From: Tetracentron sinense
Lineage: Eukaryota > Streptophyta > Magnoliopsida > Trochodendrales > Trochodendraceae
Length of the DNA stretch: 64,000 nucleotides
NCBI GenBank assembly: GCA_015143295.1
Contig: CM026565.1
Location: 33,798,052-33,862,051 of the forward strand
Direction: 5' to 3'
Shown here: positions 7,846-62,440 of the stretch, piece by piece
Layout: every line of letters begins with the position of its first letter
Numbering within the stretch: position 1 is the stretch's first letter
The notes under the pieces: generated by a model
What the model saw: the letters and a program-made list of their open reading frames with translations, nothing else
Databases searched by the model: none
What the model was told of the DNA's origin: nothing
Made by a program: the position numbers and the translations under genes

Positions 7846-9431
7846 ATGCAGGTCAGTGACTATACCTACTAGATTACTGTTCTTTATGTGTGAATCTGTG
7901 TTCATGTGCGCATGTTCTCAGTCTCTGTGATGTACGAAATTGTTCACCTTAATAGGTATAAATTGATATTAGTAAGTTAAGACCTTGGTATTTACACCGT
8001 TTAAGTGCAACCTTTTATAACAAAGAAGAAAGTGTCTTTGTTAGCAGAACTTTAACTTAGATTCTGTAAATAGAACCTATTTTAGACACAGCACCGGTTT
8101 ATTTGGGCTGGGATTGCAGCTAACAATAAGGAAGAGTTGGGGGGGAAGGAAAATTCAATTTCTAGAGCCTGATTGTGTTATTGAGATCAACATTCTGTTA
8201 TCGGAATGATGGTACTGATACTTCGAATGTATTGACTATTGAGTTTCTGGACGGAGGCAACAACTATCGTGTTTTGAAGTTAGATGAGTCAAACTGTGCT
8301 CTAAATTGCCTCATGAGTCAGAATCCGGGTGAGTGGATTATGATCGTGAAATTCCAAAATTTGATCATTTATAAACTTAATTAATAAGTGTAGAATTCTC
8401 CTTACTTTCTTTAGTGTGGTCTAGAAATGATAAACACTGTTTCACTACCTTGTTATGAACATGTACGTGTGTATATGTGTATTTAATAATCTATGATGCA
8501 TGCTCTATGTGTATTTAACAAGTATAAGACATAACTTTCGGTATAGGGTAGTTATAGGATGTCAATGTTGTACACTTGCGATCTTTAATTTATTATGTTG
8601 AACAGTTGAACTCTTTTAATATAATTGCCTCATCTTCCAATCCAGCCAGAGTTATACTGTATAATTCGTTTCTATCAGTGACATAGTTGTTAAAGGCATC
8701 ACCTTAGGCGCCTCAGGCGGTCGCCTAGGCGACCAGGCGCTCTGCTGTGCACAGGCGATTGGCTGCCTCAGGCGGTCATTATTAAAAATTGATATATATA
8801 ATATTATTATTGTTTAAGGATGTGAAAATTTATTTTATTTGAATATGATAATTCAGGCGACTGGCTGCCTCAGGCGGTCATTATTAAAAATTGATATATA
8901 TAATATTATTATTGTTTAAGGATGTGAAAATTTATTTTATTTGAATATGATAATTCGGTAAACAAAAATATAGGCTATTTTATATACTTCTAATGTCTTT
9001 TACAATACAATATGTTAGGATTTGTATATCCAACAAAAAAAAGTTTGCAGACAGAAGAAGAAAGAATAGGACCATATAGTCCCTGTTTGTTTTTTTTCTA
9101 AATTATAGCTAGCTCAGGTGGCCTAATAACAAATTAAGAGCCTTTAAATATCCTAAATTCGTTCTCAGACCCATCAAACTCTCATAAACTCATATTTAAA
9201 GGGATTATTTATAATTTAAATAAGTGTATACCCTATAGTTATATATTTTACTTATCAATATTATTTTTGTTACTTATTTTGAGTATAATCGAAAAAAAAA
9301 AAAATGAGAGAAAAATATACGACATCACCCTCTCTTCTTTCTCTCCTGTTCAGTGTCACATTTAACTGTTGAACTATTTTTCTACTTTTTATTTAGTCTT
9401 ATATTCTCCCTCCTCTCCTCTCCCCTCTCCT

Positions 9432-38700: not shown

Positions 38701-41700
38701 TTTCTTTTGGATCTGCGAACCGTTCATAAAAAGACAATTTTTAATGGTTTTTTAAATAAGTGTTTATAATATACTAATTTACCTACGTAATATATATTAT
38801 CATATATATATATATATAAGCGAACCAAGAAACGAATTGTATAATCCTACCCCTAGCGAACCGGGTTCACTCTAGAGTGGCGAACTGCGAACCCGAGTTT
38901 GAACAGACGAACCAGGTAACTGTGGCAGCGATAATGACTATAATTTATTTCTTCTTCGAGGCTTATCCATTTAGACTGCTGCAAATTTGCAAACATTCAT
39001 GGTTTTGCTGACATGGTAGAACTTCAAAATTAGGTAGTAAGAGTGTAAGACTTGTAATTTGTAGTTTTTCCTCACCTTACCCATGCACTCAAGCAACAAA
39101 GGATGGTACATTTTATAAAACCAAGTAAATCAGCATCATCATCCTTGTCCTTATTAAAAAGTAGCACTTTTACAGTGACATGGTTCTTCTCCCTTGTTGT
39201 TTAACAGATACTTTTCCACTTATTGCTTTTTACTTGTTGAGCTTCTCAAACTGTCCAAGTACATTCACTCTGTATCTTCTTTTCTGATTCACCATATTGT
39301 TTACTTTTATTTGAATTTGTATAACACTTTATCAAAAAGATCTTAAGACCTGCATTGCAGTGCAATGACAGAGAATCTGGAGGGTATGCTTCTTGGGAGG
39401 TTACTTGTTGGAGCTGGAATGGGTCTGGGTCCCCCTGTTGCATCTCTTTACGTGGCTGAGGTATAAGAGATAGCAACTGTAGTTATTTCATGGTATTTCT
39501 CAGTCCTTGATGTTAGTGGATACTTCTTTCTTATCTGGTTTTGCCTCGTCTATATGAGCAGGTTTCACCTGCTTTTGTGAGGGGTACTTATGGAAGCTTC
39601 ATTCAGATTGCAACATGTATCGGACTTATGGGGTCTCTGTTTATTGGCATCCCTGCCAAGGGAGTTGTGGGTTGGTAGGAATTTCTGAAATTTAAATGAT
39701 TATTTCGTAATTTGTTTCACTTGTGGTGGAAAATATGGCACAGATTCTGAATATTAAACCTCCCAAATATTATTTTCTAACTCGATATCTCTCAGGTGGC
39801 GGGTGTGTTTTTGGGTATCTGCCATTCCTGCTGCAATGCTTGCTCTTGCTATGGAGTTCTGTGCTGAGAGTCCTCATTGGCTATACAAGGTCATTTGCTC
39901 TCATTTGTGTGTTTCTTCAGAGTTAGATTATTATTATTATATATATATTTAAAAATTTTAAGAGAGGATGCAGTTGAGCTTAGTTTCGATGATGAACAAA
40001 AGATTTCTGTAGTTTTAGTTAAATCCAGTTTATTGTGGTAGGACTATCTATTTGGTTTCTCGCCCATCAGAAACAGTGTATTTTTTTTCTCCTAAACAAA
40101 TTTTGTGCCGCGTGTGGTCTCTTCATATTTATGAATATGAGTCTGGAATCCATAACAAATGCTATCAACTGCTGTTTTGGTATGTACTTGTAAAGAAAGT
40201 AACTGCTCACAATTACTCATTGGTATGGCTCAGCAAGGAAGAAGTGTTGAAGCTGAAGCTGAGTTCGAGAAGCTTTTAGGAGGATCACACGTCATATCTG
40301 CAATGGCAGAATTGTCAAAGTCAGACAGAGGGGATGAAACAGATACTGTGAAATTCTCAGAGTTGTTCTATGGTCGCCATTTCCGAGGTACTTATGATAA
40401 TTGGTACATCTCTCTTTTCCTATGACTTTTGTGCTTGTATCTATTCTTTTTCTTTTAAATGCTTTGTTATTCACTTTTTCGTTTTGCAGTGGTTTTTATT
40501 GGGTCATCCCTATTTGCTTTACAACAGCTCTCTGGTATAAATGCTGTATTCTATTTCTCTTCAACTGTATTTAAAAGCGCTGGAGTACCTTCAGACTTGG
40601 CAAACATATGTATAGGAATTGCTAATATATCTGGTACAGATGACTTCATTCAACAATAGTTAATTTTTATCTAAAAATGAAATTTTGGATTCTGTTTTTT
40701 TGACTGCTTAGTTTCAATGTCATCAGGGTCAGTCATTGCAATGATTTTGATGGATAAACTAGGAAGAAAGGTTCTTCTTCTTGGGAGCTTCTCGGGCATG
40801 GTAATTTGTTTTCATGCATTTTTCTGCAAGAAAACAACTCATATTTTAGCCTATAAAGAGCTGTACACACGTATATGTGGCATTGGGGCTCCACATTTAA
40901 TGTTCTAACTTATGAAATCTCCTGGGGTGGAAATCAACCAGATTGGATGATTGATAACCTAGGAAGCACGGATACGGATACGGATACGGATACGGATACG
41001 GATACGGATACGGATACGGATACGGGATATGATACGGATACGGCAAAACCTAAAAAAACAGGATACGGGTACGGCCAGGATACGTCTGTAATTTTTTTTA
41101 TAAATAATAATAATAATAATAATATATTTTGTATTATAATTACAAAATAACCATTGGTTCAGTTCTCTTTATGTATAAAAAAGATCATGTCCATGTAAAA
41201 GCAAAAGAAATAGGGTCATCTCATCATCCATTAAGCAAAAAAGAAAGTCATCCTATTATCCACTAAGCAAAATATAAAGAAGATCATGTCCATGCAAAAA
41301 CAAAAGAGATAGGGTCACATCCTTGGGTCTCCAAAAAAAAAATTTTAAAAAAAAAAATAGGGTCACACCCTTGGGTCTCCAAAAAAAATTGAAAAAAATA
41401 AAAATAAAAAATCTCGTATCTTGGTCGTATCCCGGCCGTATCCCGAAGTATCCTGGCGTATCGGAGCCGTATCCTAAATTAAAAAATTGTTTTTAATTAA
41501 TGGGATACGTTTCAGCCGTATCCCGTACGTATCCAGCCGTATCCGTATCCGATACGTATCGGATACGGGTACGAGAGGGTATTTGAAGTATCCGTGCTTT
41601 CTAGTTGATAACTATCCAATCTATGGACTTATTTTTTGATGATTGGTCATATTTGTATGATTAATAATCATCTGACTAGGATGATTTTGGTAGGAGCTCC

Positions 41701-45445: not shown

Positions 45446-48400
45446 TTAAGAGAACTGAATAGAGAAACCAGTACCAGTGGTTGAAGCATCAACAGTGCCA
45501 AATTCCTCAAAATCAGAATCTGAATCCATGTCCTTATAGTCGCGCCACTGACCAGGAGAACTCTCATCTTGCCCGTTGTTTGTAGAAGGAACTCTCAACT
45601 CATTTACAGGGACTGGTAAAGGGTTTACATTTAAGTACTTGTCATGGAGTAGTTCCATTGCAGTAGCTCTGCTTGCTGGGTCATAGCAAACAAGTCTTCT
45701 CACCAGGTGAATTTCATCAGAGGAACGATTAGGCAAGTATGCTTCCAAACCAAGAGGATTTTCAATTTTACCGAAGGAGATCTTCCCGTAATCAGGAAGT
45801 TTTGAACAACCTGGCCAGGCTTCTTCAGTTAAGTTTCCCAAGGTGCTGATGATTCTGCTAATCTGGTCAATATCTGAAGTTCCTGGGAAAAGGGGCTTTA
45901 AACTGAGAAGTTCTGCAAAAATGCAGCCCAATGACCACAGATCAATATCTTGCCCATAATCCATTGATCCATAGAGTAGTTCAGGGGCCCTGAACCAACG
46001 AGTTCCGACGCAGGACGTGAGGGCACCAGATCTGTCTCCTTCACTCTCTGCCTCATAAGAATAAGAGCTCTTGAAAGGATTGTCTTCCATGTCGCTCGTC
46101 GTGTATGTAGCAAGACAAGATGTATCTCCATCATTAAAATTAGTCTCCTTATCAGTTTCATCCACGGAGTCCTTAGCCTTGAGATCATCTAGCTCTTTGA
46201 AATATTCTTCTTTACTCATAGTAATTTGCTCTTGGTTTGAATTGTCTGATTCAGGAATAGTTTCTGGCTGTTGAAGCATCCATGTCTGACTTGGAGTGTT
46301 CTGCTCATGTGGGTGTGTGTGTTCATCGCCAGTGACAAATCCAGGCTCCAAAAGTATCCTCGACTGGAAAACCAACAATCAGACTACATATTATCAATCT
46401 TAGAAAGACACTAGCTGGACATAATGACTATATCTTGTATAAAGACGCAATGACATCCTAAGACATGCATAGGAGAAATTAACACACACGTTAGCGATAG
46501 CACTGTACTCGGAGAATACCCACAACACCAGCAGCTAATGGAAGATTTGAAGAATTCAAGTAGAATGCTGAACTAACATTTTACATCTGGAGCTGCTGTG
46601 TCATGCTTGTGCTATTATGGAAGTATGGAACCAACTCCAAGCTGAAAGCTGCTACTTTTTATTCTTTTTCCCTTTGCATTTTTCCATAAAAAAAGATTCA
46701 TGGGCACAAGAACAATTTGCAAGGTTCGGATCAAATTCTTAGAATCTGGACCCTAATTCCAATTGCCTCCAACAATCCAATGCCTATTATTGATGCCATG
46801 CCTAGGTATCTAGTATGTGAACCTTTTTCCTTGCCCCCGCTGCCACAAGCCCCAGTATGCTAGATAAAGGAACCAATGTACCATATTAGTGTGGGCGTCT
46901 GGGCAAGTTTATGATCAAGTTAATCAGCATCAACTGGAACTTATTCATCGCCATAACAACTTGTTTAAAAATGGGACCTCATGTACCAGTAATGGGAGCG
47001 TTCTTCACATCGGTAGTGTACAAATAACTAGTACAACATATACGCTAGCAAAATCTTGAATAATGGTGTTTTAGGATGACTATTACCACATTTGCTAATT
47101 CAGTCTTGGTTAGTGGAGAGAATGACTAGTACAAAGTGTCTAACATGGTCGCAAAGAGAAAAGCAAAAACTAGTTTAAAGAAATTAAAGGGCTGAAGAGA
47201 GATCCTCATTGCAATGCTCTCAACATTTTATGCCAGCCTTATCATCAAAGTCTTTGCAGGGCACCATCCCTTCTTCATCAAAGCAACCTCTTACAATCTT
47301 CAACCATAGCTTTAACTGATGAGCAATGCAAACACAATTCTTTTTTCAAAATTAATGGACAACTCATAGGATCATGATATGACCAGCTCCTATACTGGTT
47401 TGTATCTGATGAGCATCTGAACTGGAGATGTTGGTGATCATCGTGATATTGAGTAATGAATTGATGTTCCTAGAAACTACATAGGATTCTACAAGACTCT
47501 ATAACAAACTGCACCCCATTACAGAGCAATTCAAACAAAAGATCCTTGGCAATGTACAAACTTACAGAACATGATTTCAGCATCCTTTCTTGTGTTCCCA
47601 ATATCTGGCGAATATCGTGATATTGAGGGATGAATTGATGTTCCTATAAACTACACAGGACACTAGAAGATCATAACAAACTGCACCCCATTACAGAACA
47701 ATTCAAATAAAAGATAACTACACAGCATCCTTTCTTGTGTTCCTAATATCTGGCCGATCATTGTGATGCTGAGTGATGAAATTGATGTTCCTAGAAACTA
47801 AATAGAACACTAGTTAGAAGACTATACCAAACTGCACCCCATTACAGAGCAATTCAAATAAAAGATAATATCTTACCTTTCTTAGCAATGTGCAATTTTA
47901 AAGAAGATGAGTTCAGCATCATTTCTTGTGTTCCTAATAAATCTAGATAACAGAGGATAATAGGCTACAATCTAATGTTGGGATTCTAATGGTAAGTATT
48001 TATGCAATTGGGATCAAAAGAAATACTGGAAGCTGTGAATTTAGAGTGTTATACCTGTCCAAAATCCGCCAATTTGAGAACGACATCGCTTGAAATCAAC
48101 AAATTCGCAGGCTTGAGATCTCGATGAACGATCGAATTCCTGTGACATGCATCGAGGCCATGCAATATCTGAATCATCCACCACTTGATCTCCCCTACAG
48201 AGATTCCATTCTCCCAATTCCTTTTAGCTTCTCTAATCACAGAAGCCAGATCAGTCTTTAGGAATTCAAGAACGAGAACCGCGTCTTCCTCTTCCCGCCA
48301 AAAGTACTCGTGGAGAACGATGATATTGGGGGATTTTTGAAGGATTTCAAGAGCTTCAATTTCTCTGAAAGCGCTCTGGTAATCGTGAATCTCTTTCAGA

Positions 48401-48540
48401 GCAATGATGAGATCGTCGGAGAGACGACGGGCTCTGTAAACGTCGGAGTAAGCACCAGAACCGATACGTTCGAGGATTTCATATCGCTGGGTGATTTCTG
48501 TGCGGTTGTAGATGCTCCAGCTTCGAGTGGGAGGATCCAT
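45446..48540 (-). CDS. CDKF;1: Cyclin-dependent kinase F;1 (CDK-activating-kinase kinase)
   Basis: Two exons on the minus strand: 48540-48055 (162 codons) and 46363-45446; 467 residues. Kinase landmarks: glycine loop IGSGAYSDVYRA, VAIK-type lysine in IIALKEI, catalytic loop HRDLKPANLL, LADFGQ at the exon junction, T-loop GTRWFRAPELLYG, then DLWSLGCIFAELL and CYDPASRATAMELL. Between DFG and the T-loop is an acidic insertion of about 110 residues (SKEEYFKELDDLKAK, DGDTSCLAT), the hallmark of plant CDKF. The C-terminus is acidic (DSDSDFEEFG). Family role: it phosphorylates the T-loop of CDKD and CDKs without needing a cyclin, in the nucleus. The start matches the family N-terminus; the open frame extends upstream but in leader sequence. 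The single intron (1691 bp) holds tandem repeats. A MULE begins 173 bp upstream of the ATG. Confidence 0.95.
47435..47935. repeat. Three tandem repeats in the CDKF;1 intron
   Basis: Units of about 145-175 bp share GATGTTCCTA(G/T)AAACTA, AACTGCACCCCATTACAGA, CAATTCAAA(C/T)AAAAGAT and TTTCTTGTGTTCC. They start near 47440, 47616 and 47760. Confidence 0.75.
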
Positions 48541-48712
48541 GGTGGACGGTAAAATCCAAAATCTAACCTTTCTCTGATTTCGAAGAGATATGCAGACGAA
48601 TTCTGAGTTTTGTTGTTTGCAGAGTGGATAATCTAGGGTTTCTAGTTGCAGAGCTTTCAGAATCAATTACTTGAGAAAATTAAAGAGAGATAGAATTGCA
48701 CCTTTTTTTTTT

Positions 48713-48795
48713 AAGAGGAAAATACGGATTTGGGCCCCGTATTATGAAAAAACCCGTATATGGGCTCCGGGTTTGAAAACTTATTTTTGTAGGCT
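48713..48795 (+). repeat. Left terminal inverted repeat of the MULE
   Basis: Pairs with the complement of 58333-58415. Shared blocks are GGATTTGGGCCCCGTATTAT, GAAAAAACCC(G/A)TATATGGG and TGTAGGCT, with a handful of mismatches. Confidence 0.9.
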
Positions 48796-49139
48796 CCCAC
48801 GCGTGGGAGCCAAGTGCACGTGCTGCCCCTTCGCATTTTCTCCCCAAAATACCCCTGGCTTGCTGTCAAAGCTTTCTTCCCAAGCTGAAGCTCGGTTACG
48901 AACCCTCGGTTATCCTGAAGCCCTCGGTTATCCTGTGATCCGAAATCCTTCAAGGCGCAAATTTGAAACCTGCAAATCCTTCCCCAAAGTAAAACCCTTG
49001 GGTACCCAGTACATCCGGAACTCTACGAGCTTCGTAATAGCGTATTGAAGAAGAAGAAGCCAAAGAAAGAAGAAGAAGAAGCCAAAGCCGAAGAAGAAGA
49101 ACAACCCTGTAAGTTTTAGCGGTTTTTAATAAAATTTCA

Positions 49140-49890
49140 AACCTAAAAATGGGCCCCACAGTTAACGACTTCATTTTCGATGCTTTCAAGTAACCATTTT
49201 CGATGGTTATGATTAACCATTTTCGGTATTATTATTGATTTTTGCTCATTTTTCGTGATTTTCAATGGTGAAGTTAAAGTGCATTTTCGACCCTTTTGAG
49301 TTTATTTTCGGCAAAAATACATTGCAATTTCGATGGTTCTTACGACCATTTTCGGTGTTTTTTACTCATTTTCGGTATTTTCAGTTATCAATGCTTATTT
49401 TCGGTATATTTATGTTTTTGCTTATTTTCGGTATTATTCAATTATGACATTGTTTTTTCGGTATTATTGTTGATGTTGAGCCCAATTTCGGGATTTTCAA
49501 TGGTTATGTTATAATGCATTTTCGATGGTTTTGTGCTTAATTTTGGCAAAAACACAGCAATTTCGATATTTCGGTATTTTTGTGTCCTGGCAGAGTAAAT
49601 TTTCGGTATTTTGCTTTCATGACTGCCATTTTCGATGTTTTTGTGTCCTGGCAGTGCCTATTTTCGGTGTTTTTCTGCCTGGCAGTGCATATTTTCGGTA
49701 TTTTTCTGTGATGACAGTGTCTATTTTCGATATTTTTCTGTTATCCCAGTGCCTATTTTCGGTATTTTTCTGTTATCCCAGTGCCTATTTTCGGTATTTT
49801 TCTGTTATCCCAGTGCTTATTTTCGGTATTTTTTGCTATGACTGGTTATTGTCAGTACTTTCGATGGTTATTGTTATGATAGTGTTTATT
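49140..49890 (+). repeat. TTTTCGGTATTT motif array, left
   Basis: Dense irregular array of TTTTCGGTATTT, TTTTCGATGGTT and TTTTCGGTGTTTT words separated by 10-30 bp. The later part has near-regular units such as CTGTTATCCCAGTGCCTATT (about 49725-49830). It lies between the inferred leader exon (ending CCCT before GTAAGT near 49108) and the first coding exon of the Ulp1-like gene, so it is probably within a leader intron. Confidence 0.85.
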
Positions 49891-49907
49891 GTTTTTCAAT
49901 TTTGCAG

Positions 49908-52900
49908 CGACAAGATGCCTCGTACAAAGAGAAAAGCCGGTAGGGAAAAGAAAAAGAGAAAAGAGAAAAGAGAAAGAAGATAAATATTTTCTTTCGATTA
50001 AATGCTCCCAAACGATATGGTTTGACGAGATAAAACCATTATTAGAGGCCAATCCAGAGAGAAAAAGAATTTGGATGGAGAGCTGCTTTGCCCACCTTTA
50101 CAACATACCTAAAATACCACTGTGTGGCCAAGCAATCCACCATTTTCTACAGAGGCGTAAAGGAGGGTTACGCTTCGAAGTATGCGGGAAGAGTGTAGAG
50201 TTCACAGTGCTGGACTTTACTCTGATCATGGGCCTTAATGCCCAAGTGTCTAAGGCTCCGGTCCTTAAACATGAAGCGCCACCAACCTCTCTCAAGTATC
50301 GAAAGTTTCAAAAGTTGGCGGTGATTAAAAATGCAAGGCTTCTGGAGGAGTTGAAGGGATGTGATGATCATATGGATGCGGTGAAGCTATCACTGGTCCT
50401 CTTTATTGAGTTGTTGCTCGTAGGCACCGGCACGCATGTGGGTGTTAACACAGGCCATTTGTGCCTAGTGGATGATTGGGATGCCTTCAACAAATACCCA
50501 TGGGGGACTTTGGGTTTTGAGTTGTGCAAGGTTAGCCTAGAAACTGCTCTTTATATGAAGAAGCAGTACAATATAAACGGATGTGCTCTTGCCTTCCAGG
50601 TAAACATATGACTACCTAAATTTTGTAAATTTTCCGTGTTAGCTAATTTGTGTTTACTTCTACTTGAACTAATAGTAAAATTTATGACTGATGTCAGATT
50701 TGGGCTTATGAGTGCATCCCAGCACTTGGGAGGCTGTGTTCTCGTAATGCACCCCTTGGTGCGATGACATTCCCACGGGTTCTGCGGTGGGCGAATATAT
50801 CCTATCTCAGCTACAAGTCACTTGCAAATGCCATATTCAATTTAAGTAAAGTATGTAATTGGACTTGTTGTTTTACAATATTCAACTTGCAATATCCTTT
50901 GTTATTTTACAGATCATTTGTTATTTTATAACATATCCTTTGTTGTTTTACAGATCAAGCTGAGCAATATAAAGCCTACTCCTGCAGAGAAGGAGCAGCA
51001 GGTTGTGAAGGATGTGTTAGCACGATTGAGTGCTGAGGGTGATGATGATGAGGAGGGGGAGGAGGATGATGATGATGAGGGGGAGGGGGAGGGGGAGGGG
51101 GAGGGGGAGGAGGAGGATGATGAGGGGGGGGAGGGTGATAGTGATGGTGGTGATGGTGATGGGGGTGATGGTGGTGATAGTGACGGTGGTGGTAGCGATG
51201 GGGGTGATGGTGATGATGATGTAAGTCCAGCCCCATCTCCGGCGAAGAAGAGAAGGTTCGAGCAGAGGTCAAAAAGGGTACAAATATTGATTGTGATTAT
51301 TTTTTATGATTTTCAACATTTTGACATATAAATTGTCTAATTTTCGGGATTTTTACTTACTAGTTGTTTGATGTTCAATATTTTCAGGTTCATGATATCA
51401 ATTCCTCCGTTGAGCGGGCAATGGAGAGAGTTTAGACCGTTATTTTGACTGAGTTGTTGATCGAGTTGTTGACCAAGTTGTCGACCGAGTTGTTGAGCGA
51501 GTATCCCCGCAAATAAAAAGCTTGTTTGAGCAATGGGCAGCGCAACAAAAAAAAGATGAAAAAACTTCTGGTGATGAAAAATCTTTCAGTGATAAGAGGT
51601 CTCCCATATTGAGTCACGAAGCAGCACCGACACAGGGACATTCTTTCGTTGATGAGAAGATGGATCTCATCTTCACTTCCGAAGCTGCGCCGACACAGAG
51701 ACATTCTTTCATTGATGAGAAGATAGATCCCATAATTGAGTTGACTCCCGTAGATTCGAAGGGGGGTGCAGATTCGAAGGGGGTTGAAGACCTTCTAGAG
51801 GTGTGTGTTTACATTCCTAAGACGTGTAATGAGAGTCTGTGAAATGGGTTTTCATCAAGCCGGAACTTATATTTGGTAATATATGCAGGTGTCAAAGAGA
51901 CCGGTAGTGAAGTCTCAATATCTGCGATCCCCTTTCATTCAAATGAAAGGAAGGAAAATGACAATTGGAGCTGCTAACCCCAAAAATCCTTTATCAAAAG
52001 AGGAGTCGAAGCAACTGCGCGATTTCATAAAGTCGGGAGCAACTTCAATTTTGATTGACAAGGTGATGGTGACAGCGGATATTGTGGGAGGGATTTCTAG
52101 CTCAACTACGTGGATTGATTCATTGGTAAACCCAGTACTTTTATTGATGAATCCAGTAGCCATTTTCGGTATTTCAGTTTCATTATCGGTATTTCAGTTT
52201 CATTTTCTGTATTTCAGTGGTTTTAATGATGAATCCAGTAGCCATTTTCGGTATTTCTGTATAATTTTCGGTATTTCAATGGTTTTAATGATGAATCCAG
52301 TAGCCATTTTCGGTATTTCTGTATAATTTTTGGTATTTCAGTGGTTTTAATGCTGAATCCAGTAGCCATTTTCGGTATTTCTGTATAATTTTCGGTATTT
52401 CAGTGGTTTTAATGATGAATCCAGTAGCCATTTTCGGTATTTATGTATAATTTTCGGTATTTCAATGGTTTTAATGATGAATCCAGTAGCCATTTTCGGT
52501 ATTTCTGTATAAGTTTCGGTATTTCAGTGGTTTTAATGATGAATCCAGTAGCCATTTTCGGTATTTCAGTGTAATTTTCGGTATTTCTGTGGTTTAATTG
52601 ATGAATCCAGTAGCCATTTTCGGTATTTCAGAGCCATTTTCGGTATTTGTCTGTGTAATTTTCGGTACTTCAGTGGTTTTAATAATGAATCCAGTACCCA
52701 TTTTCGCCATTACAGCACCCATTTTCGGTATTTAATTCTCATTTGTACATCCATTTTCAGTAGTTGAGGACCATTTTCGGTAGTACTATCACTATCCATT
52801 ATCGTTATTTTCGGTATTCTTTTGTGAGATTATCTAACATTGGATAAATATGACAGCAAATTGACATGTATACGGAGTTATTGGCTCAAAGAAAGGAGCA

Positions 52901-53753
52901 ATACTCCTCGAAATACAATCAAGTCTGCGCTTTTGGCAAAACTTGGTTCACGGTAACTCATAATACTTTTGTTATGTTTTAGTTTATCCAATATATACAT
53001 TTATCCAATGTATATCCGCAATTTCTAAGTAACAATAATGTTCGTTATGTTTCAGTATTCGTTATTCAAGGAGTGTCACTTTTTGGACACCTACCATTCA
53101 ACTTTGAATTCCAAGAACCTGACTGAGGACATGACTAGTCGGGTGGGGCCAGATATGAAGGCTGCTATCATGGGGGTTCGAGGAGGGACCCCCATGTGGG
53201 AATGTGAAAGGATATACTTCCCTGTGAACCCCGCTAGTCACTGGCTATTGGTTGTGCTTGAACCCCTCACAAGGCGTATCCTCCTCTTCGACTCATTTTT
53301 CCCACACCCGGCATTACAACATGGAGATCATATCTCAGCTATCACAGTGAGGATGCCTGCACTGTTTCACATGTGTGGTGACAACTCAGCCTTCATAGGT
53401 CAAAAATGGGAGGTCATAGAAGTCAAAAATATACCAAAACAGAAGAATACGTAAGTCTTTCTAAAACATTTAATCTTATATTTACCAATACACTAACATG
53501 ACTCATCCTAAGCAACTGTAACTGTTTGTTTTGCATATTCAGTCGGGACTGTGGAGTATTCGTTATGAAATATATTGACTTCTTATGCGCTGACTTACCC
53601 ATTACGTTCACTCAGGTATTTGTACATCCATTGGTAAATATCATCAATCATTTGTAGCATACTGACTTTTTCTAACTATTGTTGTAGGACGATATATCTT
53701 CAATGCGGAAGCGAATAACTTTCGATGTTATGACGGGGTCAGTGAAGGCGTGA
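49908..53753 (+). CDS. Transposon-borne Ulp1/SENP-like cysteine protease (DUF1985 N-terminus)
   Basis: Likely exons: 49908-50599, 50698-50850, 50954-51277, 51388-51800, 51889-52125, 52857-52952, 53056-53450, 53543-53615 and 53688-53753, all GT-AG. The first two give a DUF1985-type domain (IWFDEIKPLL, FTLIMGL, AYECIPALG). The third is an acidic Asp/Glu/Gly low-complexity linker. The last four encode a C48 peptidase with histidine in SHWLLVVLE, aspartate in LLFDSF and cysteine in RDCGVFVMKYIDF. The family cleaves SUMO-like conjugates; the transposon's use of it is unknown. The start is uncertain: the ATG at 49915 is out of frame with the domain across a Lys/Arg-rich tract. Exon 4 (51388-51800) shows an in-frame stop and frame changes, so the copy looks damaged there. 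The catalytic exons themselves are open. Confidence 0.8.
52140..52800 (+). repeat. 62-bp tandem array containing the TTTTCGG motif
   Basis: Unit: GATGAATCCAGTAGCC, ATTTTCGGTATTTCTGTA, TAATTTTCGGTATTTCA, GTGGTTTTAAT, 62 bp in total. Units start at 52228, 52290, 52352, 52414, 52476 and 52538 with exact 62-bp spacing, with looser copies before and after. It fills the intron between protease exons 5 and 6. Confidence 0.92.
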
Positions 53754-53979
53754 TGGGCTGTGATAACGTCCCAATGTTGGATGCTGAGGTCCCATGATGA
53801 AGAGGAGGGAGAAGATAGGCCGGGGTGCAGTTTGTTGATAGACTATTATGGATGGATTGTGATGTACTATTATGGATTGTTGTGATGATGTTGTAATGTT
53901 GTAATATTGACTTCTTATGGACTATTTGTGTACAGTCCTGTAATATTGTGTATTTAGAGATGATTTTCGTCATTTATTA

Positions 53980-54570
53980 CAATATCCAGTGCGGATTTTT
54001 GGTTTTTTCGTCATATTACAGATTATTTTCAGTTTTACAGGGCTCCATTTCGGTATTTTACAGTGTCCCAGTAGCCATTTTCGGCATAACAGGGCTCAAT
54101 TTCGGCATTTTTGCCATTTCCAGTAGCCATTTTCGGCTTAACATGACTGATTTTCGGCATTTTACACTGTCTAGTAGCCATTTTCAGCATAACAGGATCA
54201 ATTTTCGGTATTACAGTCTTATTTTCGGTATTCTGCAGTACTGTATTTTTGGCATTTTTGCCATTTCCAGTACCCATTTTCGCCATTTTTCTGTTAAATT
54301 CGGCATTTTTGCCATTTTTAGTACCCATTTTCGGCATTTTTAGCCAATTTTGGTATTTTTCTGTCAATTTCGGCATTTTTCTGTTGAATTCTAGCAGTCA
54401 TTTTCAGCATTTTTGCCATTTCCAGTAGCCATTTTCGGCATTTTTCGGTTTTTCCCTATCAATTTCGACATTTTTCTGTTGCAATCCAGTAGCCATTTTC
54501 GCCATTTTATTGCCATGTTCGGTATTTTCCTGTCACTTTCGGTATTTTATTCCCATTTTCTGTCTTTTTC
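53980..54570 (+). repeat. TTTTCGG motif array between the two MULE genes
   Basis: Words CCATTTTCGGCATTTTT, CAATTTCGGCATTTT and AGTAGCCATTTTCGG repeat with irregular spacing throughout the interval between the convergent stop codons, in plus orientation. Confidence 0.85.
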
Positions 54571-54678
54571 CATGTTTTTTGAGATTCTATAATATTGGAT
54601 AAATAATAAAGAACCTTCAAACCAACCATTCATTAAGTATTACATGTTTTTCATTACATTCAACATTAGACACTACAC

Positions 54679-57266
54679 TCAACCACCATGTGGAACAAGA
54701 TTATTACATGTTTGCCTATTGCGCCCAGTTTGTTTACATCTTCCACATCTTACAGTGGACCTTTCCTCACCCTGTGAGAGAATTCTATTCTTCTTCGGCC
54801 TTCCTGAACGACTTCTTCCCACCGGTGGTTTAATCCTCTCCATCTCTACCATGATTTCAGGTGGGAGGTCCCATGATTTTTTGTCAAGCATTGGATATAT
54901 TGACTCTTGGTAGGTGGCTTGGTAAGTTAGTGATGTGTAGAATGACGAACAATAGTTGTATGGATCTACCCGATACTTTCTACATCCAGCCAAGGCATGT
55001 TCACAAGGCAACCCTATTTTATAGAATTTCCCACAAGTGCAATTCCCATCCAGAAGCTTCACAGTATCTCGATTGTTTTTCCCAACCACATAATACTGAT
55101 ACATAGCAATTCCATGAGAATCTAAATAACGTGCCTGTGATTGTCCCTTTTGTATTTGCTCTTCAGCCCATGTTGTTAGCCTGCCATTCATTTACATAGC
55201 ACTGATTTTTCGGTTGTAGAACATATTTTGTACCTTCAGTCGCACATTCTCCAAAAGCATAGTGACTGGATATTCTCTTGCTTCTTTCAGCAAACTATTC
55301 AAACTCTCGGTTATGTTCGTAGTCAGCACATTATACCTCTTCGCACTATAAAAGGCTCGGGCCCATTTCTCTTTTGGTATTGCATCCAACCATTGCACAA
55401 CGAGAGGGTTTGCAGCTGCGAGTTCTGCCATCTCATGGAACTCGCTTTCTCTACATGTCTTCACGGCTTTCCAGAAATACGGAAACAATTGCTTATCCTT
55501 GAATGTTGCATACATATTTTGGCTAATGTGGAATGCGCAGTAGCCATGAATTGCATGTGGGAATACAACAGGGACTTGGCTTATCAAACTAACATGTCGA
55601 TCTGTTACAATCACTAGATCATCTATGTGTCCAAGTACTCTTGATAATTGAGTTAAGAAAAAATTGTAAGTAACATTATTCTCCGACTCCGCTATCCCAA
55701 GGGCAACTAGAAATATGTGATTGTCTCCGTCTAGAGCTGTTGCGGCAATTAGTATTCCTTTATACTTTTCCTTTAAATGTGTCCCATCAATGGCTACCAC
55801 TTTCCGTAAAGTCCTCTGAAAACTTCGAATACACGGTCCAAGAGCCATAAAACATCTTTCAAATGCCCCATTTTCAGGGTCAGCTACTATTGCTGTTACT
55901 GTGCCCGGATTAGTCCTTTTAAGTTCATGAAAATAGGCAGGGAGTTCAGCATAAGAGTGGTCGTATGAACCTCTAACTGTTTCAATGGCAATCTCCTTAG
56001 CTTTCCAAGCTTTCTTGTAACTCATTCTAACCCCATATTCTTCCCACACATCATGAATAATCTCTTTGGACTTATACGAGACATTTGCCTCAATACGTCC
56101 CACAACCATGTCACTTACAACTAAACTGGTTGGTTGTCGATGATCGGTACCACCTAAGGGATATCCACAAGAGTGATGTGAATTATAAGTCTTTATTTTG
56201 AAAACACCAACCTCATTCACTTTCGATGCACGCAACCTCCAGGTGCAATTATCTATAAGACATCTAACTGTGTACTTTTGTTGATTTGAATCCATAACCT
56301 TGAATTGAAAATTGTTTCGCATCGCATATCTAGACAGTACATTTTGTAGACGTCTTTTGTCCTTAAATAATTTCCCAAGCGATATTTCACCAGCTTCCAC
56401 TCCAGTTTCAAACTCTGATGCTTCCCAATTTACATAGTTATCTACACCATCATTTAGTTGCATCACATTTGCCAGTAATTGTACTGGAGCTTGTGGTGAT
56501 GATGGAGCTTGTGTGACGGTTCTGGATGAGCTTGTGGTGATGCTTCTGGATGAGCTTCTGTATCTACTTGTCTTACTCGACGAAAAGCAGACGCTGAGGA
56601 ACTATGAATATCAGCATGCGGGGTATGAGAGTGTATAGTTCTTGTGTCCCACTCTGCTGTTGCCTCCCTATGTAAAAAGTCTTCAAGCTTATCGCAGACA
56701 CCGTATGTTGCTACATCTTCATCTTGATTAAAATTACTATAAAAATCATGTTCATCTTCATTAGTTGAGCTTGAGTCTATACTTTTTAAACATTCATCAC
56801 CGTTATCATTTTCAGCCTCCTGAATATGAGTCCCCTTATAGAAAGGAATGACAGTCTCCTGAATATGAGGATCAACAACCTCCTGAACACGCTGATATTC
56901 ACAACTCGCATCATTCAAACCAAACTGTGGTTGTGGTACAGATTTCCTCACCTTCGATATATATAATGGCGGCAAGTATTTATTTTCTACTTTCCTGACA
57001 TGTGAAAGAAATGCCCGCAACTCTTCATCGTCTGTAATATCACTGGGAGGGAATGGCGCTGGTGTAGGAATCAAACACCTCACTATAATCTCATACTCTT
57101 CCAGTCGAGTGTTAGTCAATTGATAAACTTTATCCAATAGTTTGTCATATGTCATTTTCGAAGATAATTGCAACAACTTTGATTTTCCACCACTGTACAC
57201 TTACCCTCGAACACGGTCGTCAATGTTCCACTCACCGTCATAACAACAAACTACTGATATCGGCAT
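54679..57266 (-). pseudogene. mudrA-type MULE transposase, interrupted
   Basis: Minus-strand gene beginning at ATG 57266-57264 (MPISVVCCYDGEW) with an N-terminal PB1-like region (GGKSKLLQL, MTYDKLLDKVY). An acidic and His/Pro-rich linker follows, then the MuDR domain (FKDKRRLQNVLSRYAMRNNF, CTWRLRASK). The MULE DDE core includes VVAIDGTHLKEKYKG, DDLVIVTDRH and HGYCAFHISQNM. Last come a SWIM zinc finger (CTCGKFYKIGLPCEHALAGC) and a CCHC-like knuckle (CGRCKQTGRNRQTC). Three interruptions are seen: an in-frame TAA at 57203-57201, a frame change near 56530-56470 and an in-frame TAA at 55194-55192. Otherwise it reads through about 860 codons, so inactivation looks recent. It converges on the protease gene. 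Confidence 0.9.
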
Positions 57267-57299
57267 TATCTGCAATATCGGGAAAACACTCAATCCGTT

Positions 57300-58050
57300 A
57301 AAGTATTCTGAAAAATTTCGAAAATGAGCGCTGTAACCATTGAAAATGCACTGTAATAACCAAAACCGCCGAAGATCACAAAATCATCGAAATAGCACTG
57401 TCATATCAAAATTGCAATAACAGAAAACCCCCGAAAATGGGCATTGTATCCATCGAAAAGCAGTGTCAGAACAAAAAACCACCGAAAATGAGCATCAAAG
57501 CATCGAAACAGAACTGTAATAACAGAAAACCACCGAAAAGGAGCATAAAATCATCGAAAATACACTGTAATATCGAAAATGCAATAACAGATAACCACCG
57601 AAAATGACCACAAAACCGCCGAAATAGCACTGTAATAACACAAAACCATCGAAAATCTGCATAAAATCACCGAAAATGCACTGTTATACTGGAAAACCAC
57701 TGAAAATGGGCAAAAAATATCGAAAAAGCACTGTTATACTGGAAAACCACCGAAAATGGGCATAAAATCATCGAAAAGCCCTGTAAAAGAGAAAATGCAA
57801 TAACATCAAACCACCGAAAATGACCACAAAACCGCCGTAAATAAGCTCAAAACCACCGAAAATGAGAACTGTAACATTGAAAATGCACTGTAATCACAGA
57901 TAACCACCGAAAATGAGCAAAAAAAATCAAACTTTATCACTACAACCATCGAAAATGAACTCTAATAACAGAAAATGAGGAAAATGAGCACATAACCCTA
58001 GCAAATACCGAATATGATCACTGTAACCATCGCAAAATGGATCAAAAACA
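57300..58050 (-). repeat. Motif array, right (inverted orientation)
   Basis: Words ACCACCGAAAATG(G/A)GCA, CATCGAAAATGCACTGTAAT and AACCGCCGAAA repeat at about 20-40 bp intervals. These are the complement of the CATTTTCGGTGGTT type, so the array faces the opposite way to the left one. It lies upstream of the mudrA ATG, ending at an ATTGCAG acceptor-like site at about 57273, so probably a leader intron. Confidence 0.85.
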
Positions 58051-58332
58051 TACAAACACTTACCCTATGTTCTTGTTCTTCTACTTCTTCTTCTTCTTCT
58101 TCACAAGGGTTTAGCTCAGTTGCAATGAAGGAGAAAGCTTCAACGAAGGGGAAAACTTAAGTCTAGCTCGTTGCAACGAAGGGGAAAGCTTGGGTTTCGG
58201 ATGAATGCTTCGTTGAAGGGGAAAGCTTGAGCTCAGTCGCACGGTGTTTAAGGGTTCTCTAACAGGGATGGGGGGCATTTTGGAGATTTTTTTTTTAGAG
58301 GAAACCACGTGCTCCACTAAAATCACTGTAGA

Positions 58333-58415
58333 AGCCTACAGAAATAAATATTTCAAACCGGAGCCCATATATGGGTTTTTTCATAATACGGGGCCCAAAT
58401 CCGTATTTTCCTCTT
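58333..58415 (-). repeat. Right terminal inverted repeat of the MULE
   Basis: Complement of the left repeat; ends CCGTATTTTCCTCTT before a run of T and AAACAT. Just inside (58120-58235) are several GAAGGGGAAAGCTT words, also seen in weaker form inside the left end. Confidence 0.9.
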
Positions 58416-59276
58416 TTTTTAAACATAAAATAACGAAAATACCACTATTAGCTCATCATACCTTTCTCTTCTTTCATATCTTAGTATCCATTAAAGAACC
58501 ATTTGGATTTATTTTAGAATAAGATTTTGTTCAAGAATTATAAAATTTACATTTTAAGGTCTTGAAATTCGGTTAAGCTTGGATTTGTGTTTGTTTTGTG
58601 TTTTTTTTTATGGTGGATATCTAACTTGAATTTGATTATGCTGCTATAAATGTATATGGGTATCCATATATATATTTTTTTGGTTCGAGCCGCAATGCGG
58701 ATTAGTTGTTAGTATCGGTTCAATTAGTGGGTGGGTGGAGAGTATATACAAACTCCCACCCTCTCAGGAATGGAACCCGGTACCTCCCCCCAAAGCAAGG
58801 GATACACTACCACTGGGACAAAGCCCTGTTTCTATAAGTTGGCTGAAGGGTTTTGTTCACATATTGATTTGCTTTTGATCAAATTTCTGTAAGACCAACT
58901 TGATAAAACCCAATAATGCTGCTTAGAGTTATATGTATATTTTAGTTTTTCCTAGTTCATTGAAATTGAACTGAATGGCGGAGCAGGATTACGTGTTTTG
59001 GGACTAGGCATTGAAGATGATGATGAGTTCATTGAGATTTTTTTTAATCACATATTGATTTCAACTTATGTTCTGCTTTTTGTTTGATAAAATTGGTCTA
59101 AGAAATTGGGTTTCCAGGGATGGATTGTAAACCTGTTGCAATTGGTTGTTTGCATATGAAATTTTTGATGAAATGCCTCTCTGAAGAATAAAAATCTGTG
59201 TCTTGAATTCAGTCTCTCTCTCTCTTTGTGAAAGTTTCCTTTTGGTCATTGTCGGGCTCAGGTGATCTAGTTCACT
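58416..59276. other. Upstream region of CCMH
   Basis: AT-rich sequence holding one SINE (58676-58828), then the likely CCMH leader with a CT-rich stretch (TCTCTCTCTCTCTTTG near 59213-59227). No gene is recognised. Confidence 0.5.
58676..58828 (-). mobile_element. tRNA-derived SINE
   Basis: On the minus strand the segment begins CAGGGCTTTGTCCCAGTGGT with an A-box-like TGGTAGTGTATCCC, followed about 30 bp later by the B-box-like GGTACCGGGTTCCATTCC. It ends in an A run (T run at 58675-58681 on plus). Spacing and promoter boxes fit a tRNA-derived SINE. Target duplication was not clear. Confidence 0.7.
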
Positions 59277-61433: not shown

Positions 61434-62440
61434 AGGGGAAATCCCCGGACTCGCCACGCGTTAATAGCTGTAATGATCTCTGATTTACTGGTAGAAGGAA
61501 GATAGTGAAACTCCACCTGTAAATGAAACTGAAGGGGTGAGTGTGCACCCTGAAATAGACTCCGATGATAAAGTCAGTATAAGGCATAAGCATATGAGCA
61601 TGATAGTATAGAGATACTTATCATGAGGTCATTGAGTATATGCGCTTGAGGATGGGCTCTGGTGTTGTGCTTTGGAGGACGAGCAATAGGGAAGTATAGG
61701 ACGTAGCTCAGGTGCAATAGAGGACGTAACTCTCGACAATGTAGCTCTCGGATCGGACAATGTAGCTCTCGGCAATGTAGCTCTTGGACAACGTAGCTCT
61801 CAGTAATGTAGCTCTCGACAATGTAGCTCTCGACAACATAGCTCTCGGACAACGTAGCTCTCGGCAATGGGTACGTTGTCTAGAGGACAACGGATACGTT
61901 GTCAAGAAGATAACAGGCTCGGATAATGCTCAGACAACGGGTTCCGACAATGGGCTCAGACAACGAACTCGGACAACGCTCAGGTACGTTCATGGAGAAC
62001 ATCAGGTAGACATAACTGATTTGAGAGAGCATCCGGTGGTCATAATCGACCGTGAGGCCGTGGAGAACATCAAATGAAGATGAGAGCATCAGGTTGGTGA
62101 CTGTCTTCTTAGTCCTTTGGAGTTGGGGTGTGAAGGACTCAAGCCTCCTAGTTCTCCTTCTTCTTCTTCTCTCTCTTGTCTTTCATACCCTCTTCCTTTC
62201 TCTAGTGATTCTTGCTTATTTATAGGCATTTGGAGTCATCATGTAGTCATGATGAGGTCACCTGTCATATATCACTTAAGAGAGCCAGCACATTGTCCAA
62301 GTGGGCTTATGTTGACTAAATTGTTAGAATTTATTAGAGTGGGAAATTCCTATTTTACCCTTTCTTTATACGAATTTTTCCCATTACAGAATGTATAAAC
62401 CGAAATTTACTCTTTCTTTGGACTGATTTCCAAATCAACA
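61434..62440 (+). mobile_element. Possible fossil solo LTR (gypsy-like)
   Basis: The order of features resembles a gypsy-type LTR: GATGATAAAGTCAGTA near 61568, a repeat-rich middle, a CT-rich stretch (about 62155-62215) and TTATTTATAGGCAT at 62217-62230. No internal coding domain is seen. Ends and target duplication could not be fixed, so this is tentative. Confidence 0.3.
61718..61990 (+). repeat. GTAGCTCTCGGACAA minisatellite
   Basis: About ten imperfect copies of a 16-18 bp unit (GTAGCTCTCGACAAT / ACGTAGCTCTCGGACA) in a row. They decay to the right into ACAACGGGTTCGGACAA-like units. The minus-strand open frames across it are repetitive peptides and not genes. Confidence 0.85.

Follow-up and report, generated by a model that had tools for sequence, protein, structure and literature searches.

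The MULE and its two genes

The window (the whole stretch of DNA that we analysed, 64,000 nucleotides) looks like nuclear plant DNA, given its GC content of 37.6% and the presence of MULE and protein-kinase genes. It contains a MULE of 9,699 bp (about 9.7 kb). The target-site duplication (TSD) of a MULE is typically about 9 bp, and the 9-bp word TTTTTTTAA is found on either side of this element, but it is a low-complexity word and is weak evidence by itself. The TIRs are about 81 bp long and 94% identical (in an ungapped comparison, 88 nt at 90%). The element carries two converging genes, which we call the left gene (plus strand) and the MURA gene (minus strand). In positions of the window, the features are:

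48715..58413, no strand assigned: MULE, with the 9-bp TSD TTTTTTTAA at 48706-48714 and 58414-58422
48715..48795, plus strand: left TIR, the same as the right TIR in 77/82 aligned columns, with 2 gaps
49916..50599, plus strand: left gene exon 1, DUF1985 (PF09331, 49.4 bits, cut-off 35.1)
50954..51799, plus strand: left gene exons 3-4 and the intron between them, encoding acidic repeats and short peptide repeats; exon 4 has a frame change as well as a stop
53056..53753, plus strand: left gene exons 7-9, Ulp1/C48 protease (PF02902, 78.5 bits on the spliced sequence; SENP alignments)
54679..57269, minus strand: MURA transposase coding region, encoding MULE, DBD_Tnp_Mut, and SWIM domains; interrupted by one frame change and two in-frame stops
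58333..58413, minus strand: right TIR, paired with the left TIR

The MURA protein, with its MULE domain, places the element in the MULE class (PF10551, 70.7 bits; PF03108, 47.3 bits; SWIM, 25.1 bits). The left gene, which is the DUF1985 and Ulp1 partner of MURA, was overlooked in the first-pass annotation. Our model for it has nine coding exons and was inferred from GT/AG splice sites and open frames, without transcripts. In both genes, the first ATG is directly 3' of the acceptor of a long leader intron. In the Ulp1 domain, the His, Gln, and Cys are kept in alignments to SENP5 and SENP2, and the Asp is also kept in the SENP2 alignment; these four are the catalytic residues of such proteases. 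Exon 3 includes a long acidic tract rich in Asp, Glu, and Gly (51035-51218), which is encoded by tandem-repeat DNA. This tract resembles the repeat-bearing variable regions of VANC proteins (PMC5735166). A single-sequence structure prediction for the DUF1985 exon was too poor for use (mean pLDDT 46.2, pTM 0.35).

Besides the stops and frame changes listed above, the DUF1985 domain is out of frame with the first ATG after the leader intron. Unrecognised introns or starts might account for part of the apparent lesions in both genes. Because both genes appear to be disrupted, this copy is probably not autonomous: it is probably either a relic or a target that depends on the protein of an intact relative. 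Using blastn, we did not find a second copy of the MULE elsewhere in the window. We also searched non-plant collections, whose results have no bearing on plants. In viral contigs, searches for MURA and for DUF1985 each gave 7 candidate stretches, of which none were confirmed, and a two-motif pattern had no matches; in bacterial and archaeal genome contigs, the search for MURA gave 7 candidate stretches, again with none confirmed.

The neighbor of the MULE is a protein-kinase gene (45446-48540, minus strand), which presumably resembles CDKF;1. Two open stretches in this gene match positions 1-143 and 151-263 of the Pkinase profile. The left edge of the MULE is 175 bp upstream of the ATG of the kinase gene (48540), so the insertion is in the promoter or leader of that gene.

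Oriented motif arrays in noncoding DNA

The window has 54 copies of the word TTTTCGG, while shuffled windows had a mean of 9.1 copies and a maximum of 16 (0/100 shuffles reached 54). All but 5 of these copies are within the MULE (49 copies). The shorter word TTTCG is concentrated in four blocks:

49109..49907, plus strand: motif block 1, the leader intron of the left gene; 25 TTTCG sense, 0 antisense
52126..52856, plus strand: motif block 2, intron 6 of the left gene; 19 TTTCG sense, 0 antisense; repeat units of 62 bp and 20 bp
53754..54678, plus strand: motif block 3, the gap between the 3' ends of both genes; 17 TTTCG in the sense of the left gene, 0 antisense
57270..58061, minus strand: motif block 4, the leader intron of MURA; 20 TTTCG sense, 1 antisense

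Each of these sense counts exceeds the largest count from 200 dinucleotide shuffles of that block (25/10, 19/7, 17/7, and 20/10 for blocks 1 to 4). Outside of the MULE, no scanned 500-bp stretch had more than 3 TTTCG per strand. Within the MULE, the noncoding DNA (4,659 bp) has 48 sense and 0 antisense copies of TTTTCGG, and the coding DNA (5,040 bp) has 0 sense copies and 1 antisense copy, at 55207-55213 in the MURA coding sequence. (The interval counts used exon borders that differ by 1 base from the final ones at 50697/50698, 52125/52126, and 52953/52952; there is no TTTTCGG at these places.)

Several statements in the first-pass annotation concern these counts. It had the word in the sense of the transcript in both gene-leading blocks, which is correct, and blocks 2 and 3 are also in the sense of the left gene (for the four blocks together, 81 TTTCG sense and 1 antisense). 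The word is much commoner in noncoding than in coding DNA of the MULE (48 versus 1 TTTTCGG), and it is not found at a similar density in other DNA (5 TTTTCGG in the 54,301 bases outside of the MULE). Its statement that the word saturates every noncoding interval was too broad. Of the 13 intervals, 4 are saturated: the leader introns of the two genes, the 3' intergenic gap, and, in the left gene, intron 6. Just one of the seven short introns has a TTTTCGG, as a single copy. Neither of the TIR-bearing end segments (394 bp and 352 bp) has any, and each has one antisense TTTCGG. Similarly, the word is absent from exons in the sense orientation, but not altogether, given the antisense copy in MURA.

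Aligning 81 copies on TTTCG gave the core ATTTTCGRYRKTT. The conserved columns, as counts out of 81, are A at -2 (68), T at -1 (67), R at +5 (75), Y at +6 (77), R at +7 (78), K at +8 (72), and T at +9 (75); the five anchor positions are not judged by this alignment. The core is part of tandem arrays with differing unit lengths (20, 32, 51-52, and 62 bp). The view that a single word with variants fills all four blocks is not borne out as worded: the 12-mer TTTTCGGTATTT has 20 copies, all in block 1 (6) or block 2 (14). Block 3 has mostly TTTCGGCA and TTTCGGTA, and block 4 has mostly TTTCGGTG and TTTCGATG.

The core contains a CpG. The observed/expected ratio for CpG is 1.30, 1.06, 0.74, and 1.22 in blocks 1 to 4, as compared to 0.60 in the MURA coding region and 0.56 outside of the MULE. 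These ratios might be a footprint of hypomethylation, but the motif itself contributes CpG to the blocks. If we count the motif while ignoring the CG positions, then we find 61 with CG, 13 with CA (7 of them from the block 2 repeat unit), 3 with TG, and 6 others. CpG transitions make up 16 of the 44 single mismatches to the core. As the commonest single mismatch (13 CA) is a product of CpG, the arrays were probably methylated at times in the past.

Array lineages, helical spacing, and neutral amplification

The arrays fall into about two lineages with one common core. With the core excluded, flanking sequences are common to blocks 2 and 3 (z of 14.1 upstream and 5.0 downstream) and to blocks 1 and 4 (5.9 and 8.5), weakly common to blocks 1 and 3 and to blocks 3 and 4 (2.8 to 4.8), and not common to blocks 1 and 2 or to blocks 2 and 4 (-0.9 to 1.1); in the null for this test, letters are shuffled inside each flank and duplications inside a block are not taken into account, so these z scores are inflated. 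The estimate of about two lineages reflects the sharing within 2-3 and 1-4 and its absence from 1-2 and 2-4. With the cores included, blastn gave matches at E <= 1e-3 for all six pairs of blocks. The independent amplification that had been suggested from the sequence is thus half right: the flanks do differ between blocks 1 and 2 and between blocks 2 and 4, but not between 2 and 3 or 1 and 4.

These arrays could be neutral minisatellites, in which replication slippage and unequal exchange amplify AT-rich units in any DNA that is free of coding constraint, without a protein that reads the motif. In favour of this, the unit lengths are typical of minisatellites, flanks are strongly shared between blocks 2 and 3 and between blocks 1 and 4, and coding constraint by itself would keep arrays out of exons. 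Nevertheless, we consider this explanation unlikely. It does not fit with a core that is common to blocks whose flanks are unlike (1-2 and 2-4), nor with the near-uniform orientation (81/82 TTTCG), nor with the spacing of the motif, which follows a period of about 10.4 bp in all four blocks even if distinct spacings are counted once.

Specifically, the 77 distances between adjacent TTTCG had a peak mean cosine of 0.64 at 10.4 bp. None of 5,000 jittered sets was as high; in these sets, each spacing was moved by up to 5 bp and the period grid was 0.2 (0.1 for the observed data), which slightly favours the observed value. In scans of 8-14 bp, the peaks for blocks 1 to 4 were at 10.5, 10.4, 10.4, and 10.2 bp, and were matched by 2, 0, 1, and 0 of 5,000 jittered sets. 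The signal was kept if distinct spacings were counted once per block (n = 45; 0/5000) or once overall (n = 29; 7/5000). Among all 134 pairwise distances of up to 70 bp, the peak in a scan of 5-25 bp was again at 10.4 bp, and the distances pile up at 20-22, 30-32, 42, 51-52, and 62-65 bp. In each of the two flank families taken separately, most adjacent distances (28/43 and 27/34) are within 1.5 bp of a multiple of 10.45, and 22/77 are not. As a control outside of the MULE we used bases 1-48714, where TTTCG has 1 close pair and CGAAA has 4, so these words are uninformative; two other words in that region, TTTTC (n = 49) and GATG (n = 63), had no 10.4-bp signal (mean cosine of -0.04 and -0.06).

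This phase matches the helical turn of DNA and suggests that one face of the duplex is read by a protein or by adjacent proteins, perhaps cooperatively. Among the new findings, the phasing argues most strongly against neutral slippage, although the motif copies and their spacings are partly dependent because units were duplicated. Helical periodicity of motifs has reportedly been described by Sasaki et al. in 2022 (EMBO J). If so, phasing is an already known trait of such arrays.

Predicted targets of a VANC/KIU-like protein

We propose that the arrays, with a core of about ATTTTCGRYRKTT, are targets of the family's own VANC/KIU-like protein, which would be encoded by the left gene and would counter silencing. 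We consider this prediction to be likely, by analogy to the systems described in the papers cited here. VANC21 from Arabidopsis binds YAGTATTAY in vivo and in vitro, and is located at introns and at the intergenic and terminal noncoding parts of VANDAL21, where the motifs are dense and in a single orientation (Hosaka et al. 2017, PMC5735166). The motif arrays of VANDAL21 evolve as tandem repeats, VANC6 has a different motif, and VANC proteins combine DUF1985 with variable regions that contain peptide repeats (PMC5735166). VANC and RdDM share noncoding target regions, on which they have opposite effects (Sasaki et al. 2023, PMC10398659). KIUs, which are VANC genes with a captured Ulp1 domain, act on motifs that belong to their own group, and the eudicot clade shows strong conservation of the Ulp1 domain (2026 review, PMC13317346). 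In KI-MULEs, the Ulp1 gene is opposite mudrA, and those of Arabidopsis are non-TIR (PMC2528002). MULEs with Ulp1 are also cited for melon, grapevine, and rice (PMC13317346, PMC2528002).

By its domains, the left gene is VANC/KIU-like: it has DUF1985, and it has Ulp1 on the strand opposite to MURA, which is the domain pair of the KIU-type VANC anti-silencing proteins of VANDAL MULEs. The element resembles VANDAL21 (Hiun) in encoding a DUF1985 protein with a peptide-repeat region, and in having a short, dense motif in a single orientation and in tandem repeats within introns and intergenic DNA. It resembles the KAONASHI elements, or KI-MULEs, in having the Ulp1 gene opposite MURA (PMC2528002). 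There are also differences. Unlike VANDAL21, it has an Ulp1 domain, clear TIRs, and no arrays at its ends, and its core has a CpG, which is missing from YAGTATTAY of VANC21 and from AGTTGTCC/AC of VANC6. Unlike the KI-MULEs of Arabidopsis, it has TIRs of about 81 bp (PMC2528002). The MULE is neither VANDAL21 nor VANDAL6, as it has another motif: the motifs of VANC21 and VANC6 do not form arrays in it (there is one YAGTATTAY, in coding DNA, and no AGTTGTMC). The core matches YAGTATTAY at 7/9 positions, which we discarded as evidence because 13% of shuffled consensuses equal it. Under a strict definition, VANDALs have absent or degenerate TIRs (PMC10398659), and the 94% identical TIRs of this element do not fit, but TIRs are present in some of the elements that group with VANDAL (PMC6446971), so the clear TIRs are not decisive against kinship.

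We infer the steps of binding, demethylation, and expression from the Arabidopsis precedent. Many copies of the VANC/KIU-like protein would bind the long noncoding intervals at their dense, co-oriented, and helically phased motifs. The bound protein would remove methylation at the arrays and then over the entire element, so that the transposase and the VANC-like genes would stay expressed. A private motif would confine this anti-silencing to the element's own family. This proposal is supported by the KI-MULE layout of a DUF1985 and Ulp1 gene opposite MURA (PMC2528002); by the distribution of TTTTCGG (48/0 in noncoding and 0/1 in coding DNA) and the tandem arrays with differing units; and by two flank lineages that have one core and a spacing of about 10.4 bp in every block. 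It is weakened by the disruption of both genes, by arrays that stop short of the ends, by the clear TIRs, by the lack of VANC21 or VANC6 motif arrays, by the CA mismatches of the core, which suggest methylation at times, and by the partial dependence of motif copies and spacings on tandem duplication.

The other candidates in the first-pass annotation were a splicing or expression enhancer and a transposase-binding site; its third, a chromatin signal, fits best, and its overall interpretation of a word that was amplified as a signal is partly supported. An intronic enhancer, whether it works within the transcript or at the 5' end of it, could account for three blocks being introns in the sense of the transcript, two of them leader introns that end just 5' of an ATG. 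However, block 3 is intergenic, beyond the 3' ends of both genes, yet is equally oriented; 6/7 short introns have no TTTTCGG; and the helical phase points to duplex DNA rather than RNA. TTNGATYTG is an intron-enhancement word, and it has no occurrences in the MULE. An enhancer therefore fits badly, and we think it very improbable. We give the least credence to sites that MURA would bind to bring the element into a complex for transposition: a DBD_Tnp_Mut domain is present in MURA, and subterminal repeats bind the transposase in some other DNA transposons, but both TIR-bearing end segments lack TTTTCGG, blocks 2 and 3 are 3.4-6 kb from the ends, and the orientation of the motif tracks the genes.

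The first-pass annotation knew of no description of such arrays. VANDAL MULE arrays with such a layout and a DUF1985 protein have been described (PMC5735166), and VANCs that carry Ulp1 have been summarised (PMC13317346). The arrays are thus of a known kind, and what is new is another motif, its internal CpG, and an element with clear TIRs. This motif was not named in any title or abstract opening from our search of mainly open-access literature. Our VANC/KIU-like proposal predicts which word a DUF1985-Ulp1 protein would target in a MULE that has clear TIRs. Anti-silencing systems that use short motifs bear on the arms race between transposons and hosts, and the authors of the Arabidopsis study mention a possible use for locus-specific demethylation (PMC5735166).

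The CpG in the core might also make binding sensitive to methylation. Unmethylated phased arrays would be kept open, while methylated arrays would exclude the protein, which would give a self-locking on/off switch. This idea is speculative and more likely wrong than right. If it is true, then this system would contrast with the CpG-free motifs of VANC21 and VANC6, a MULE with clear TIRs would also be under such a system, and the phasing would reflect copies of the protein that assemble cooperatively on a single face of the DNA.

We also noticed three tandem repeats outside of the MULE. A hexamer array (ACGGAT) at 40968-41043 has about 12.7 copies with 91% matches, and a repeat at 61724-61869 has a unit of 15, 31, or 46 bp around GTAGCTCTCGACAAT. 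At 8752-8956, a 102-bp unit is present in two tandem copies; these are 99% identical, so this duplication is probably very recent.
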